From Pseudomonas sp. MWU15-20650 (lineage in GTDB: Bacteria > Pseudomonadota > Gammaproteobacteria > Pseudomonadales > Pseudomonadaceae), in contig NZ_JALJFG010000014.1 of NCBI RefSeq assembly GCF_023242475.1, forward strand, positions 1 through 64,000: a stretch of DNA of 64,000 nucleotides, in the 5' to 3' direction. Below are positions 26,387 to 32,366 of this stretch, piece after piece (the first letter of the stretch is position 1; the number at the start of each line of letters is the position of its first letter). The position numbers and the translations under genes were made by a program. Under the pieces are notes generated by a model, which had not been told where the DNA came from, made no database searches, and was given only the letters and a program-made list of their open reading frames with translations.

Positions 26387-27883
26387 ATGGTCCAGATGCG
26401 TAAATGGCGCCCTTTGCTCAACCTTGACGACGGTGTCACCCAAGCGTCCTACCGCAAGATTGCCGAAGGTCTCGTCACCGCGATCCTCGACGGTCGCTTG
26501 CCGCCTGGGACATTACTGCCGGGCACGCGGGAAATGGCACAGCTGCTCGACGTCAACCGCAAGACCGTGATCCTGGCCTATGAAGAGGCCATGACCAAAG
26601 GTTGGCTGATCAGCGAGCCGCGCCGTGGCACGTTCGTCAATACGCAACTGGCGCCACAACCCATGCCCAGCCGCGCGCAAGCGTCCTTCGCGCCCCCCAT
26701 CCTGGATCAGCCGGTGGTGCCGTATTTCACCCATAACGCCCAGGTGGTCGCCCTGCAACATCGGCACGACGCGCTGTTTTTCGACAACGGCACCAGCGAC
26801 CACCGCTTGCTGCCCCAGGCTGTTTTGCATCGCTACTATCGCCATGCACTGCGCAACAGCTTTGCATCCAACACCGTACGCTACGGCAGTGAGGGCACCG
26901 GCTATTATTTGCGCTGCGCGCTGGCCGAGATGCTGCGCAACAACCGTGGGTTGACGGTCAATGCCGAGAACATCTGCCTCACCCAGGGCACCCAAATGTC
27001 GCTGTACCTGAGCGCCAGCCTGCTGCTCAAGCCGGGGGACGTGGTGCTGGTGGAGCGCCTGAGCTACCCGCCGGCGTGGGAAATCTTCCGCAAGCTTGGC
27101 GCGCAACTGGTCACGGTCGACATCGACGATGAAGGCTGCCGCACGGACCAGATCGAACGGCTATGCCGCGAGCATGACGTGCGCATGATCTACCTCACGC
27201 CGCACCACCAGTTCCCGACCACGGTGAGCTTGCATGCCGCACGCCGGCAACACCTGCTGGCGTTGGCGGCGCAGCATGACTTTTGCGTGATCGAGGAAGA
27301 CTACGACCACGAATATCACTTCAGCGGTCGGCCTTACCTGCCGCTGGCCAGTGACCGCGCACAGCGCCATGTGATCTACATTGGCTCGTTATCCAAGGTG
27401 CTGGGCTCAACGTTCCGCTGCAGTTATATCGTGGCGCCCGCCCCTGTCGTTGAAGCTCTGCAGCGCAATGGCGCACTGATGCTGGGCGACGCCGATGCGG
27501 TTGCCCAGACCATGCTGGCGGACTTGATCAATGACGGTGAGTTGAAGAAACACCTGCGCCGCGTCTCGAAAGAATACCGAGCACGCCGAGAAGTGTTGCA
27601 AGACTGCTTGCACCAGGCGTTCGGCGCTCGGATCAACCTGCGGGAGCCGGAAGGCGGCTTGGCGCTGTGGGTACGCTTCCAGGAAGAAACAGACGTGGAT
27701 CGGTTGGTAAAAACCGCCCTGGAGCATGGGCTTGTCGTTCGCAGCGGCCGTCAGTTTTCACCCAACGACCTGCCGCAAAACGCCCTGCGCCTGGGCTTTG
27801 CATCCCTGGACCGGGATGAGATCCAGCAAGCCACGCGGCGGCTGGCCCAGGCGATGAAAGCGATGGAGCACCGCTCATCCTGA
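26387..27883 (+). CDS. MocR-family (GntR-HTH plus aminotransferase-like) regulator
   Basis: A 498-residue regulator with an N-terminal GntR winged helix (ASYRKIAEGLVTAILDGRLP, then REMAQLLDVNRKTVILAYEEA) and a C-terminal type I aminotransferase fold. The PLP-binding lysine is in YIGSLSKVLGSTFRC, and the EEDYDHEYHF motif is conserved. MocR proteins sense pyridoxal phosphate or an amino compound bound to it. The position divergent to the flavoreductase-M24 fusion, and upstream of the 726-residue protein on the same strand, suggests it controls one or both. Confidence 0.9.
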   Translation: MVQMRKWRPLLNLDDGVTQASYRKIAEGLVTAILDGRLPPGTLLPGTREMAQLLDVNRKTVILAYEEAMTKGWLISEPRRGTFVNTQLAPQPMPSRAQASFAPPILDQPVVPYFTHNAQVVALQHRHDALFFDNGTSDHRLLPQAVLHRYYRHALRNSFASNTVRYGSEGTGYYLRCALAEMLRNNRGLTVNAENICLTQGTQMSLYLSASLLLKPGDVVLVERLSYPPAWEIFRKLGAQLVTVDIDDEGCRTDQIERLCREHDVRMIYLTPHHQFPTTVSLHAARRQHLLALAAQHDFCVIEEDYDHEYHFSGRPYLPLASDRAQRHVIYIGSLSKVLGSTFRCSYIVAPAPVVEALQRNGALMLGDADAVAQTMLADLINDGELKKHLRRVSKEYRARREVLQDCLHQAFGARINLREPEGGLALWVRFQEETDVDRLVKTALEHGLVVRSGRQFSPNDLPQNALRLGFASLDRDEIQQATRRLAQAMKAMEHRSS

Positions 27884-27976: not shown

Positions 27977-30157
27977 ATGTCCTTGATCAGTGCTGTCGAA
28001 CGCGCCTGCACCCGGTTGGCGCCCGCTGGCTGGCGCGACCTGCTGCTGCACCACGGTTTGGACATCACCTCAGCCACTCTGCGCGAAGAACTGGCCAAAC
28101 CCCTGCACGTTGATCGCACCCATCCGGGCTTCGAGGACTTCTCAACCGAAGGAATACGTGGCGTCGAAGCGGGACGCCCGGCGGCAAGCCTGCTGTTTCA
28201 TGCATTCGCCTCGCCGAATGTGACCTCCGGAGCCAAGGGTGAAGCACTTACAGCCTTTCCCACACCCGCTGAATTGGAGCACATCCTTAACTATGTCTAC
28301 GGTGCCAAGCCTCCCAGCCTGGAGGCTTTGAGGCTCGAAGCCGGGGGCGCGGAGCTCGCGCTCGCAGTGTTTGCCTATGAGTACCGGCCTCAACCTGAGA
28401 CCGTGCATGGGCGCCAGGCGGACCTGTGCTTTTCCCGCACCGGGGTAGCCCGGGTCGGCACAGCACAAGTGCTTTATGACCCACAACAAAGAGGCTTTTT
28501 GCCTTTTGTCGCGGGCCAGCCGAGCCAGATGCGGGTGATCCCAGCGCGCTACGGCGCGTTCATTGCGGCAAAGTACGTGGGCCAGCCAGAACAATTCGGC
28601 CCGATGAACGCTCAACCCATCGACCACGACCTCGAGTTCTGGGTGCCCTTGCACAAAGTCTTCGATGGCGATGAGTGCCTGGCCGGGATGGACCTGAGCG
28701 TTCAGTTGGAAAATCACCAGGTCAATGAAAAGATCGGCCAGATCCACAGACGCTTTCGCGATACCGGCTGGCAAGAGCCTGACATTCTCAACCCACCTTT
28801 CGTGATTACAGAGGGGTTATGTCATTGGGCCGATGTCGAGACGTTTGCGCCAGGCTTGCTGGTGCCCAACGCCAGGGAAAGGCTGGTGGAATTGGCTTAC
28901 TACCAAGGCCGTCCACTGTCCTTCATGATGCCCGCTGGCACGGGTGGCCTGGTGCATGGGCGCCATCATGTGCGTGATGACGGCTCGATTGAAGACCTCA
29001 ATGAACGAGAAGATGTCGATGCCATCGTCAAGGCGGGTGGCTACCGAGCCCTGCACTATCAGGATGCAATGGCCGATGGCTGGGTGCGCGCGCACTGCCC
29101 TGCGCTGGAACTGGAGAGCATCGCCGCCTATTCGATCATCGGAGCACCGGATTTTTTCCCGTTGTGCGGGCAACGGGAACTCAAGCAATGGTCCAGCGAC
29201 CCTGACATTTTTCCCTGCCCAACGCCGCCCTGCCCGCCGGTGTGGCACACACGGGTCAACCCCCTGTCCGATGTACGCTTTTTCATCAATCAATCCCTTG
29301 AGGGGGGTTATTTTTCCCCTGAAGACCGTAGCGTCACGTCGATTGTCTCCCACCCCCAATCTTCGACGATGCCACGCCCGGCCTACCCGGTGGCCTATGC
29401 CCGGCGGCAGTCCTGGCTGCCGGATTTCGCCAGCGGCGTCTTCGGGCCAGGCTGGGAGATAGGCCGCGGCTTGGTAGACGCCCCGTTCGCCAACGTGCTG
29501 TGTGGTTATCAATTAGCCAGCCCGTTCACCGAAGACGCGCGCATCTGTGCAGCGCTGGGTTCGTACTGGCCGGGGGTAGCACCTGACTCCACTCGCACAT
29601 TTGAACCGCGCAGCGTTTCTGCCACGGTCATTCCGCTGACCGACAACGAAATCGGGCTGGGAGGCGGCCCCGCCTGGGATGGTCGCACCGGCCCTACCGT
29701 GATTGAACTGGCGGGGCGTAGACAGGTGCAATATCAAGCCTATGAGTACAGCGACTATACCCAGGCCGCACTGGACGGACGGTTATCACTGGCCGTCACC
29801 GGGCACACCAGTACTGAGCAGTACCATCAGCGAGTATTGGGGATGCAGCGTGCTTATCGGGCAGTCGGTGCGGGTTCAGACAAAGAACAGCGAAAACGCT
29901 GGCCACTGCTGTCATTTTTCCGGGTGCAAGTACCGGACGAAGCTTTCGAGGTCGCGCAGCACGAAGCCGGTTTCCAACTGGCAGGCGAGGCGCACTATTA
30001 CCGGCTGTTCAAACACGGCGAGATCACTACCCCCTCGTACAACTTCAAGCTTCGCCACGTGGAAATAGAGCAAGAGGTCGAACTGTATATAAGCCAGGAC
30101 GCGGTCCTTATCCGTCAGAACGGCGCATCTTGGCGACCATTCGATGAGTCACTTTGA
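27977..30157 (+). CDS. 726-residue protein, possibly a divergent LodA-like quinone-cofactor oxidase
   Basis: A 726-residue soluble protein without signal peptide; I do not recognise it with certainty. Weak LodA-like hints are GVARVG at 156-161, GPGWEIGRGL near 490, and PFTEDARIC followed by SYWPG, which loosely resembles the PWQxDFxxC...WWP region I recall around the cysteine and tryptophan that form cysteine tryptophylquinone. Candidates here are C524 and W531 or W567. Length equals that of L-lysine epsilon-oxidase LodA. It overlaps the flavoprotein gene by 14 bases, like lodA-lodB. A family of unknown, non-quinone function is the alternative. GGAGGA precedes the ATG. Confidence 0.5.
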   Translation: MSLISAVERACTRLAPAGWRDLLLHHGLDITSATLREELAKPLHVDRTHPGFEDFSTEGIRGVEAGRPAASLLFHAFASPNVTSGAKGEALTAFPTPAELEHILNYVYGAKPPSLEALRLEAGGAELALAVFAYEYRPQPETVHGRQADLCFSRTGVARVGTAQVLYDPQQRGFLPFVAGQPSQMRVIPARYGAFIAAKYVGQPEQFGPMNAQPIDHDLEFWVPLHKVFDGDECLAGMDLSVQLENHQVNEKIGQIHRRFRDTGWQEPDILNPPFVITEGLCHWADVETFAPGLLVPNARERLVELAYYQGRPLSFMMPAGTGGLVHGRHHVRDDGSIEDLNEREDVDAIVKAGGYRALHYQDAMADGWVRAHCPALELESIAAYSIIGAPDFFPLCGQRELKQWSSDPDIFPCPTPPCPPVWHTRVNPLSDVRFFINQSLEGGYFSPEDRSVTSIVSHPQSSTMPRPAYPVAYARRQSWLPDFASGVFGPGWEIGRGLVDAPFANVLCGYQLASPFTEDARICAALGSYWPGVAPDSTRTFEPRSVSATVIPLTDNEIGLGGGPAWDGRTGPTVIELAGRRQVQYQAYEYSDYTQAALDGRLSLAVTGHTSTEQYHQRVLGMQRAYRAVGAGSDKEQRKRWPLLSFFRVQVPDEAFEVAQHEAGFQLAGEAHYYRLFKHGEITTPSYNFKLRHVEIEQEVELYISQDAVLIRQNGASWRPFDESL

Positions 30158-31148
30158 CGTCGTTGTCGTAGGCGCCGGCCCGGCCGGGTGCGCCACAGCG
30201 ATCTACTGTGCACAACAGGGGCTACGGGTCGCCCTGCTGGAGAAGGCCCTATTCCCCAGACACCGGCCGGGGGAAACACTGCATCCTGGGGTTGAACCAC
30301 TGCTGCACCAACTGGAGGTCACCGCCCTGGATTACCGGCGACACCCAGGCCATTGGGTGCACTGGGATGGCCCACCGCGTTTCAATTCGTTTGGTGCCGA
30401 TCGCGATTCGGTCTGGCTGGGCTTTCAAGCCCCACGCGCGCTGCTCGACCAACAATTGCTTGAGCGGGCTCGCGCGTTGGGCGTGCAGATAGTGCCGGTC
30501 AGGCATGCCCGCCCGGTAGTGCAACCACAAGGCCGCGTTCAAGGCGTCCGGGTGGGCGCAAGGCAATGGATGGGTAAATTCGTAGTCGACGCCACGGGGC
30601 ATAGCAGCTGGCTGCAACGTCAACTGCAGATACCCTGGTGCCGTTTTTCACCGCGCTTGATTGCACGGTATGGCTACTGCCAGGACAGCAGCCTCACAGA
30701 GGACAAACTCGGCTTGTTCGCCCACCCACATGGCTGGCACTGGATTACCCGTATCAGCCATACGTGCCTGCACTGGACCCAGATGGCGTTCACAGAGGCG
30801 GGTCAACACCGCCTGAGGCCAAAGGTACTGGAACCCTTCAAAGCGATCGGCCGGATTCGCGGTGCCGATGTTTCGTGGCGGCGGTGTCACACGACGGCCG
30901 GGCCCGGCTACTTTTTAGTCGGTGATGCCGCTGCGACGCTGGACCCTTGCGCCTCCCACGGTGTGATCAAGGCATTGATGTCCGGCATGCAAGCCGCCGC
31001 GGCGATTGTCGACTGCCTGTCTTGGCCGGCTGGGGAAGCAACCGTGCAAGCGGCTTATCAGGCGTGGGTACAAAAAGCCGTAGAGCGTGATGTGCTCGCC
31101 CTGCGTAGCTTCTATCGCGCCCATCCCTGTCCACCCGGCTGGCTGTAG
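30144..31148 (+). CDS. FAD-dependent monooxygenase-like protein (LodB/QhpG-like)
   Basis: A 334-residue flavoprotein with the dinucleotide motif GAGPAG at residues 10-15. RHRPGETLHPGVEPLLHQL follows, typical of the tryptophan-halogenase/geranylgeranyl-reductase group that includes LodB and QhpG, and the second FAD motif is GYFLVGDAAATLDPCASHGV. LodB and QhpG hydroxylate a tryptophan in their partner protein during quinone cofactor formation. The gene starts inside the end of the 726-residue gene, so the two are made together, supporting a modifying role on that partner. No halogenase WxWxIP motif was seen. Confidence 0.72.
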   Translation: MSHFDVVVVGAGPAGCATAIYCAQQGLRVALLEKALFPRHRPGETLHPGVEPLLHQLEVTALDYRRHPGHWVHWDGPPRFNSFGADRDSVWLGFQAPRALLDQQLLERARALGVQIVPVRHARPVVQPQGRVQGVRVGARQWMGKFVVDATGHSSWLQRQLQIPWCRFSPRLIARYGYCQDSSLTEDKLGLFAHPHGWHWITRISHTCLHWTQMAFTEAGQHRLRPKVLEPFKAIGRIRGADVSWRRCHTTAGPGYFLVGDAAATLDPCASHGVIKALMSGMQAAAAIVDCLSWPAGEATVQAAYQAWVQKAVERDVLALRSFYRAHPCPPGWL

Positions 31149-31154
31149 GCGCCC

Positions 31155-32366
31155 TCAGCCCGCAGCCCCCAGAAACGGTAACGCCAGGAACAACTTGATC
31201 ACCAGCGCATTGGTGATATCGATGAAAAACGCCCCCACCATCGGCACCACCAGAAACGCAATCTGCGACGGTCCGAAGCGTTGGGTCACTGCCTGCATAT
31301 TGGCAATCGCCGTCGGCGTGGCGCCGAGCCCGAAACCGCAGTGGCCGGCCGCCAGCACCGCCGCATCGTAGTTGCGCCCCATCACCCGGAACGTCACGAA
31401 GATCGCAAACAGCGCCATCAACAACGCTTGCGCACCCAGCAGAATCACAATCGGCAAGGCCAATGCCGCCAAGTCCCAGAGCTTGAGTGACATCAGCGCA
31501 ATCGCCAGGAACAACGACAAACTGACGTTGCCCAGCACCGACACTTCGCGCTCGAACACCTGATGCCAGCCCAACGCCGACAACCCATTACGCAGCACCA
31601 CACCGACGAACAGCACACAGACAAAGGTCGGCAACTCGAAGGCGGTGCCTTGGATAAAACCATTCAGGAAAGTGCCTACCTGCAGGCTGATCGCCAGGAG
31701 GGCCAGGGTTTCGATAAACGAAAATGGCGTGATCAGGCGCTCCTGGTTTGGCTGCTCGAACCCCTTGGCCACGCTCGGCTGCGGCTGCCCGACACCTGGC
31801 ACCTGGACGCGCTTGATGAGCAAGCGCGCAACCGGACCGCCGATCAGGCCACCGAGCACCAAGCCGAATGTCGCCGAGGCAATCGCCAACTCGGACGCCG
31901 AAGCAACGCCATACTTTTCGCTGAATACCGCGCCCCAGGCCGCGCCGGTGCCATGCCCGCCCGACAACGTCACCGAACCAGCCAGCAACCCCATCAGCGG
32001 GTCAAGCCCCAGCGCCTTGGCCAGAGCGATACCCATGGCATTTTGCACCACCAGCAGCGCGGTCACGACCAGCAGGAAAATAGCCAGTAGGCGCCCGCCT
32101 TTCTTCAGGCTGGCAAAGTCTGCGTTCAAACCGATGGTGGCGAAAAACGCCAACATCAATGGGGTTTGCAAAGAGGGGTTGAAACGCACCTCGATATCGC
32201 CCAGCGCACGCAATGCCAGGAGCACTACCGCGACCAGCAAACCACCGGCGACGGGCTCCGGGATATTGTAGGTGCGCAGGAAACCGATACGCGCGACCAG
32301 CCAGCGCCCCAGCAAGAGCACAAGGGAGGCGGCTACCAGCGTTGAATAGAAGTCGAGCTGAAACAT
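31155..32366 (-). CDS. gltS: Sodium/glutamate symporter
   Basis: A 403-residue inner-membrane protein with about ten to twelve helices. Both inverted-repeat reentrant motifs are visible: LLAGSVTLSGGHGTGAAWG in the first half and LAAGHCGFGLGATPTAIANM in the second. These match GltS of E. coli, which takes up glutamate with sodium. It is single, with its stop only 6 bases from the convergent flavoprotein stop and no clear hairpin between them. Confidence 0.92.
   Translation of the reverse strand: MFQLDFYSTLVAASLVLLLGRWLVARIGFLRTYNIPEPVAGGLLVAVVLLALRALGDIEVRFNPSLQTPLMLAFFATIGLNADFASLKKGGRLLAIFLLVVTALLVVQNAMGIALAKALGLDPLMGLLAGSVTLSGGHGTGAAWGAVFSEKYGVASASELAIASATFGLVLGGLIGGPVARLLIKRVQVPGVGQPQPSVAKGFEQPNQERLITPFSFIETLALLAISLQVGTFLNGFIQGTAFELPTFVCVLFVGVVLRNGLSALGWHQVFEREVSVLGNVSLSLFLAIALMSLKLWDLAALALPIVILLGAQALLMALFAIFVTFRVMGRNYDAAVLAAGHCGFGLGATPTAIANMQAVTQRFGPSQIAFLVVPMVGAFFIDITNALVIKLFLALPFLGAAG

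Follow-up and report, generated by a model that had tools for sequence, protein, structure and literature searches.

To our knowledge, only two groups of enzymes built around cysteine tryptophylquinone (CTQ) have been characterized, the LodA/GoxA oxidases and quinohemoprotein amine dehydrogenase (QHNDH). LodA (L-lysine epsilon-oxidase, 2ymw and 3weu) and GoxA (glycine oxidase, 6byw) are accompanied by LodB and GoxB, and the gamma subunit of QHNDH, QhpC (1jmx_G, 1jju_C), has QhpG as its maturase. Here, we describe two overlapping genes in a stretch of 64,000 nucleotides from Pseudomonas sp. MWU15-20650 (contig NZ_JALJFG010000014.1, positions 1 to 64,000; the window), both on the + strand, which encode a protein of 726 residues (27977..30157) and a flavoprotein of 334 residues (30144..31148). 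We consider it likely that the two genes encode a self-sufficient CTQ enzyme unit, in which a LodA/GoxA-type scaffold is combined with its flavoprotein maturase. The family of the 726-residue protein probably represents a third, divergent branch of CTQ enzymes, with amine or amino-acid oxidase activity and a QhpG/LodB-like partner for maturation. The reading of the first product as a putative CTQ enzyme resembling LodA and QHNDH gamma draws on conservation, an AlphaFold model, structural comparisons (Foldseek, VIA) and profile alignments; that of the second as a QhpG/LodB/GoxB-like flavin adenine dinucleotide (FAD) monooxygenase and putative maturase draws on Pfam, NCBIfam and PDB matches and on adjacency.

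Both open reading frames (ORFs) start with ATG, the first preceded by GGAGGA 6 bases upstream, and their coordinates bear out the 14-base overlap described in an earlier note on this DNA, which had proposed a new tryptophylquinone enzyme. Plain sequence searches with the 726-residue protein in Pfam, NCBIfam and the PDB gave no relevant match, and the Pfam scan returned 0 families. Its relatives in other genomes span 30-85% identity, the named ones being those of P. costantinii (85%) and P. antarctica (84%). Among 30 aligned members, P491, G492, W493, D520, C524, W531 and W567 are invariant (30/30). This alignment omits ORFs below 600 residues (loci L022, L026 and L027), the duplicate L032, the split L035 and the first copy of L058, and keeps the broken gene of L008 and that of L028, which is cut by the end of the locus. 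Three of the invariant residues, D520 (29534..29536), C524 (29546..29548) and W531 (29567..29569), make up the motif D-x3-C-x6-W, kept in 30/30 members, as is SPFxEDxxxC around C524. The motifs picked out by the earlier note are located at residues 156-161 (GVARVG, 28442..28459) and 490-498 (GPGWEIGRG), with C524 within DARICAALGSYWPG; they exceed chance, since relatives at 30-85% identity exist and seven residues are invariant in all 30 members. The region with PGW, SPFxEDxxxC, YWPxxxPD and WD, hereafter the CTQ segment, comprises residues 478-582 (29408..29722).

In LodA, CTQ is built from Cys516 and Trp581, according to PMC4417212. In the LodA chain, Cys516 is the Cys of PWQADFFNC and Trp581 the second Trp of YWWP. 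The suggestion that C524 and the Trp of SYWPG (W531) are the cofactor residues agrees with our alignments, in which they fall at the positions of the CTQ Cys and Trp of LodA, GoxA and QHNDH gamma, W531 being matched with W581 in YWWP of LodA and with W43 in WWP of gamma. D520 corresponds to the conserved Asp of tryptophylquinone enzymes (LodA D-F-F-N-Cys516, QhpC Asp33, GoxA Asp678). W567 (29675..29677) was also considered as the CTQ Trp and was dropped, because LodA W581 lies in YWWP and W567 aligns, at low confidence, with a different residue, the second invariant Trp of canonical LodA proteins. There is a good likelihood that CTQ forms at C524 and W531. The Cys-Trp spacing is 7 in the 726-residue family, 65 in LodA, 6 in QhpC and 5 to 37 in 21/22 canonical proteins, where it was measured by a pattern that missed L086.

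The profile-profile comparison with LodA-like proteins, which had been named as a check on the proposal, came out in its favor. The family matched 22 canonical LodA-like proteins with P 2.8e-4 and an hhalign score of 45.1, whereas column shuffling reached at most 28.8 in 60 trials and reversal of the profile 14.4. As controls, canonical LodA compared with the flavoprotein family scored 24.7, and the 726-residue family compared with the flavoproteins scored 16.0. Three hhalign settings were run: the one used here, one that went astray past about residue 400 (P 0.0011) and a global mode that gave a senseless path (P 0.033). At default stringency with the first 8 canonical proteins, the PDF block alone was aligned (P 8.5e-4). 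The loose-stringency path is collinear and pairs GVARVG with GIARVG (GVARLG in LodA itself), YQDAMADG with W-DD-SDG, IIGAPDFFP with VGPPxYAP, FGPGWE with FxPGxE, D520-x3-C524 with D-x3-C and YW531P with WWP; confidence digits are 7-9 at the matched motifs, about 3 where W567 meets the second invariant Trp, and low in the long intervening stretches. The middle of this path, YQDAMADGWVRA...AYSIIGAPDFFPLCG (residues 361-398, 29057..29170), is the counterpart of WYDDISDGSVT...AWMVVGSPDFAPE in LodA; it is seen in the profile alignments, in the LodA row of the PDB search (E 1.0) and in the LodA_N match of relative L029, the only one of 30 members with such a match (E 0.0099, 16.3 of 26.3 bits, below the cut-off). 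LodA_C was matched in 0/30 members at E up to 0.1 in Pfam, and the canonical proteins scanned as a positive control matched both LodA_N and LodA_C (7/7). In the genome of the window, a LodA_C match was absent at E up to 10.

The predicted structure also leads to LodA and GoxA. An AlphaFold (AF2) model of the 726-residue protein, built from 28 members, has a predicted local distance difference test score (pLDDT) of 83.9 and a predicted template modelling score (pTM) of 0.88. The LodA fold expected for this protein is reflected in the Foldseek listing, where the model retrieves LodA (rows 1-6, E 4.5e-5 to 8.3e-4) and GoxA (rows 7-37, E 0.022 to 0.12) before every other PDB entry in that listing; the first other row, 38, is an archaellum filament (E 0.21). 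In VIA-align, ranks 1-14 are all GoxA/LodA (Z 7.4-5.9, 263-281 residues, root-mean-square deviation (rmsd) 3.9-6.0), and the next entry has Z 3.4. The fold numbers are modest by themselves, and it is the exclusive ranking of LodA/GoxA that carries the weight for the model. By the VIA ranges, the LodA/GoxA-like core covers only about residues 126-649 (28352..29923). The LodA-like length noted earlier is a coincidence; about 125 N-terminal residues precede this core. The 726-residue protein resembles LodA/GoxA in its predicted core fold, its GxARxG start, the PDF/P-Y-A-P block, PG.E, D-x3-C, WPxxxP and the adjoining gene for an FAD maturase, and so has the fold by prediction, the CTQ residues at the level of sequence, and the partner of these oxidases. 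Unlike them, it falls below the LodA_N and LodA_C cut-offs of Pfam, has SPFxED for PWQxD and a short Cys-Trp spacing, and combines an extra N-terminal helical domain with a shorter core.

The CTQ segment appears to be at least as near to QHNDH gamma as to LodA, which the earlier note overlooked. D520, C524 and W531 line up with Asp33, Cys37 and Trp43 of gamma. With the CTQ segment of L018 as a single sequence, both solved gamma subunits were found, 1jmx at rank 1 (E 0.0049) and 1jju at rank 3 (E 0.19) of 177,635 distinct PDB sequences, a match that stems from this one sequence and not from the profile of the whole family; PGWE falls on PGWE, DVRIC on DLYGC and YWPAVTPD on WWPAQVPD. The Pfam family QH-AmDH_gamma matched 3/30 members at E up to 0.1 (best 1.5e-4, 22.2 of 25 bits, below the cut-off) and not the window protein, and the NCBIfam model QH_gamma matched 1/30 (E 0.0011). 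In the genome of the window, QH-AmDH_gamma did not rise above the cut-off (best E 0.67, with stops). When profiles were compared and scored against the best of 100 column shuffles, the family reached 28.8 against gamma (shuffles 19.7), its segment alone reached 21.1 against the C-terminal part of LodA (shuffles 16.6; a weak match, P 0.015), and LodA reached 34.8 against gamma (shuffles 19.9); the P-values of the gamma comparisons are rough because the gamma alignment consists of 3 similar sequences only. None of 7 canonical LodA proteins matched QH-AmDH_gamma and neither of 2 gamma sequences matched a LodA model (E up to 1). The C-terminal part of canonical LodA and gamma (L087-L090) share more than D-x3-C and WWP, among other things W-x2-L-G-x-[VI] further downstream.

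The family thus shares with QHNDH gamma PGWE, D-x3-C, a Cys-Trp spacing of 7 versus 6 and, in relative L018, WPAxxPD. In addition, the window flavoprotein scores best with the model of QhpG, the gamma maturase. C524 is the sole invariant Cys of the CTQ segment, whereas gamma has more, the extra ones serving three Cys-Asp/Glu thioether bridges. Gamma is a subunit of 80 residues, whereas the segment sits inside a chain of 726, beside which no neighbor other than the flavoprotein is conserved family-wide. As to the partners encoded in the qhp operon (radical SAM QhpD, diheme alpha, beta propeller), clustering gave no conserved non-flavoprotein neighbor, a family-specific search for them not being part of the analysis. 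On balance, the CTQ segments of LodA, gamma and the 726-residue family look related, with the last of these in between.

This proximity to gamma raises the possibility that CTQ forms in an enzyme that is a dehydrogenase and passes its electrons to a cupredoxin or another carrier, as in QHNDH and methylamine dehydrogenase. L062 fits such a scheme: a protein of 390 residues (1709-2881) with a C-x2-H-x2-M pattern is encoded between the flavoprotein and the LodA-like gene and shows weak similarity over residues 15-83 to amicyanins and further blue copper proteins (14/15 PDB rows, best E 0.049). However, Pfam finds no domain in this protein at E 0.01, phmmer against the ORFs called in the 34 stretches places such a gene in a single locus, and the pair has no conserved carrier gene as a neighbor. 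We regard a dehydrogenase as an unlikely description of the family, while some members may be dehydrogenases because of the protein in L062. As for the window protein, an oxidase rather than a dehydrogenase is a choice on which our judgement is evenly divided.

The assignment of the flavoprotein to the LodB/QhpG-like group is upheld by NCBIfam, where QhpG is the best model (E 3.5e-37), followed by the geranylgeranyl reductase superfamily (1.8e-26), GoxB (1.1e-23) and LodB (4.8e-22), all of them matching below their cut-offs. Among the 13 flavoprotein homologues given, the QhpG model matches 13/13 at E 1e-10 or better and LodB and GoxB 12/13. In Pfam, the flavoprotein matches Trp_halogenase and other FAD families; in the PDB, QhpG (7ctq) is found at E 2.2e-6 with the single sequence and 1.1e-17 with a profile. 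E44, W198 and W200 are invariant in 13/13 flavoproteins and are candidates for the counterparts of the catalytic Glu42/Trp183 of QhpG. A clear QhpG orthologue was not found near the two QHNDH gamma genes, where there was one weak match (1e-6, L094), which stayed in the flavoprotein alignment used as hhalign control. According to PMC7876137, QhpG dihydroxylates an unmodified Trp and requires QhpD, LodB and GoxB act on 7-hydroxy-Trp, and the flavin-dependent halogenases (CmlS, PltA) belong to the same superfamily as QhpG and GoxB, whose closest structure is CmlS; the window flavoprotein is of this superfamily too. Unlike the halogenases, it pairs with a LodA-like protein, and its best NCBIfam model is QhpG and no halogenase.

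The halogenases bear on a second alternative, a LodA-like scaffold without CTQ, in which the flavoprotein makes another Trp modification (e.g. hydroxylation or halogenation only) or acts through W567 or W493. Both of these residues are as invariant as W531, halogenases are the closest PDB matches of the flavoprotein, and the structural model is unreliable around C524. Yet the residue matched to the CTQ Trp in LodA, GoxA and QHNDH gamma is W531 and not W567, neither C524 nor D520 varies, and the annotation tryptophan 7-halogenase is also carried by flavoproteins next to four canonical lodA-like genes. Such a scaffold seems to us improbable, and a CTQ enzyme with its maturase is the reading that we retain.

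The two genes travel together. Of the Pseudomonas genomes sampled, 27/398 carry a relative of the 726-residue protein, as do plasmids of Acaryochloris, Burkholderia and Cupriavidus (3/72,556 records); searches of the sampled class (1/369) and phylum (1/398) found the window's own copy and nothing else, and no relative was present in the phage records and viral contigs searched. In 26/32 copies above 500 residues, the large gene has a flavoprotein gene in the same orientation no more than 4.5 kb away between centres, 24 times downstream and twice upstream (L062, L063). The copies without one are L003, L033 (where its absence is based on an ORF search), L035, L037, L039 and the second copy of L058. 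This count omits ORFs below 500 residues and L034, a displaced ORF with a flavoprotein (E 2.7e-22), keeps the broken copies L041 and L055, and treats L035 as a miss despite a weak flavoprotein match after it (E 4.3e-10). In the neighborhoods of 34 stretches, the window included, the flavoprotein family is present in 28 and the next commonest family in 9; other shared neighbors of the pair mark close relatives. Within-family distances of one protein are correlated with those of the other (r 0.88, 24 gene pairs, 0/2000 permutations as high), which is expected because any two genes inherited together would show it. That the genes are independent, the flavoprotein acting on a small molecule and the large protein being a separate enzyme or a structural protein, is very improbable: a few large-protein copies do stand alone, but the flavoprotein accompanies 26/32 in otherwise changing surroundings, the large protein has a LodA-like fold, and the two genomes that lost one adjoining flavoprotein hold another complete pair (L056 for L039, L058 for L037), so that maturation in trans is possible there.

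Individual loci show different states of the pair. In L003 (12174-12176), the flavoprotein is cleanly gone directly after a large gene with an open frame, and in L039 (5846-5986), it is reduced to a remnant of 47 residues beside an open-frame large gene. In L058 (1871-10477), less than 9 kb hold two LodA-like genes, of which the second lacks a flavoprotein, with a gene for a flavin amine oxidoreductase of 604 residues between them; the same genome carries a third copy elsewhere, also without a flavoprotein (L037).

Several results weigh against a CTQ enzyme and its maturase. No member passes a Pfam cut-off for LodA or QHNDH (30 members scanned). With the full-length family profile, LodA appears in the PDB at E 1.0 only, behind the unrelated TraH (0.16), and with the profile of the CTQ segment, neither LodA nor gamma is found, one row being returned (E 0.68). 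PW[QH]xDxxxC is present in 22/22 canonical proteins, and the 726-residue family has SPFxED instead. Structurally, the Foldseek template modelling score for LodA is 0.14-0.16 with an rmsd of 14-16, the VIA Z is below 8, which according to the note of the tool may reflect a common arrangement alone, and pLDDT is below 50 at residues 521-529 and 531-534, the proposed cofactor site C524/W531; the model is also unreliable at 490-503. The flavoprotein falls far below the NCBIfam equivalog cut-offs (QhpG 128.3 of 240, GoxB 83.8 of 400, LodB 78.5 of 400 bits), and its nearness to halogenases might be added; this last point is no argument against a maturase, because QhpG and GoxB are themselves nearest to CmlS and the flavoproteins of canonical loci carry halogenase annotations. 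Finally, L003, L033, L037, L039 and the second copy of L058 have open frames and no flavoprotein neighbor. Since the family fails the Pfam cut-offs of both LodA and gamma and lacks PWQxD and the extra Cys of gamma, we treat it as a divergent relative and file it in neither.

If the pair is a CTQ enzyme unit, the following course may be inferred, which takes in the crosslink, the part played by the flavoprotein, an oxidase activity and the substrate class. The flavoprotein, translated from the overlapping start, would, in the cytoplasm, bind the apo-enzyme (a signal peptide is not evident on visual inspection) and oxygenate W531. The thioether to C524 would then close, the conversion of the two residues to CTQ being helped by D520, and the quinone would oxidize a primary amine or an amino acid through a quinone Schiff base. 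The electrons would most likely go to O2, which is the default by analogy with LodA, with release of H2O2 and ammonia.

The likeness of the family to both known CTQ segments suggests, at the level of alignments, a shared origin of LodA/GoxA and QHNDH gamma. It may be a surviving bridge between them: the CTQ module could have arisen once and served within large oxidases as well as, released from them and braced by thioether bridges, in the form of gamma, the 726-residue family being a third CTQ class with a new N-terminal domain. We give this scenario an even chance. Tryptophylquinone systems have been argued to be convergent in PMC7876137, and a single origin of the CTQ module, which may equally well hold or fail, runs counter to that view. 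Among the open-access papers searched, no title or abstract opening dealt with this Pseudomonas family or with a LodA-gamma link, subscription papers lying mostly beyond the scope of the search. A family that resembles both CTQ segments makes their common origin directly testable, and the two genes provide a compact system for the study of flavoprotein-driven quinone synthesis within a partner protein. If active, the family would extend the range of amine or amino-acid oxidases by enzymes that escape annotation with the Pfam and NCBIfam models applied here.

The N-terminal extension (residues 1-124, 27977..28348) is predicted to be helical. Folded alone, it has a pLDDT of 84.4, and no solved fold matched it (Foldseek best E 4.8; VIA best Z 2.2 among 24 chains). 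It contains an invariant H75 in SLLxH, within the pattern PGxPxxSLLxH. A cytochrome origin, raised by this pattern, was considered: a diheme c-type cytochrome model has one weak match among 28 members (E 0.0021), and CxxCH is absent from the window protein.

Third-position GC is 0.669 in the gene of the 726-residue protein and 0.675 in that of the flavoprotein, lower than in the adjacent regulator gene (0.774), which fits acquisition of the pair as no more than a hint. Downstream, an ORF of 403 residues (31155-32366), which we take from its sequence to encode a GltS-like glutamate symporter, is convergent to the pair. The regulator, encoded upstream on the same strand (26387-27883), is of the MocR type, with GntR and aminotransferase domains, and its family is found near relatives of the 726-residue protein in 7/34 stretches, mainly those of the closest relatives.

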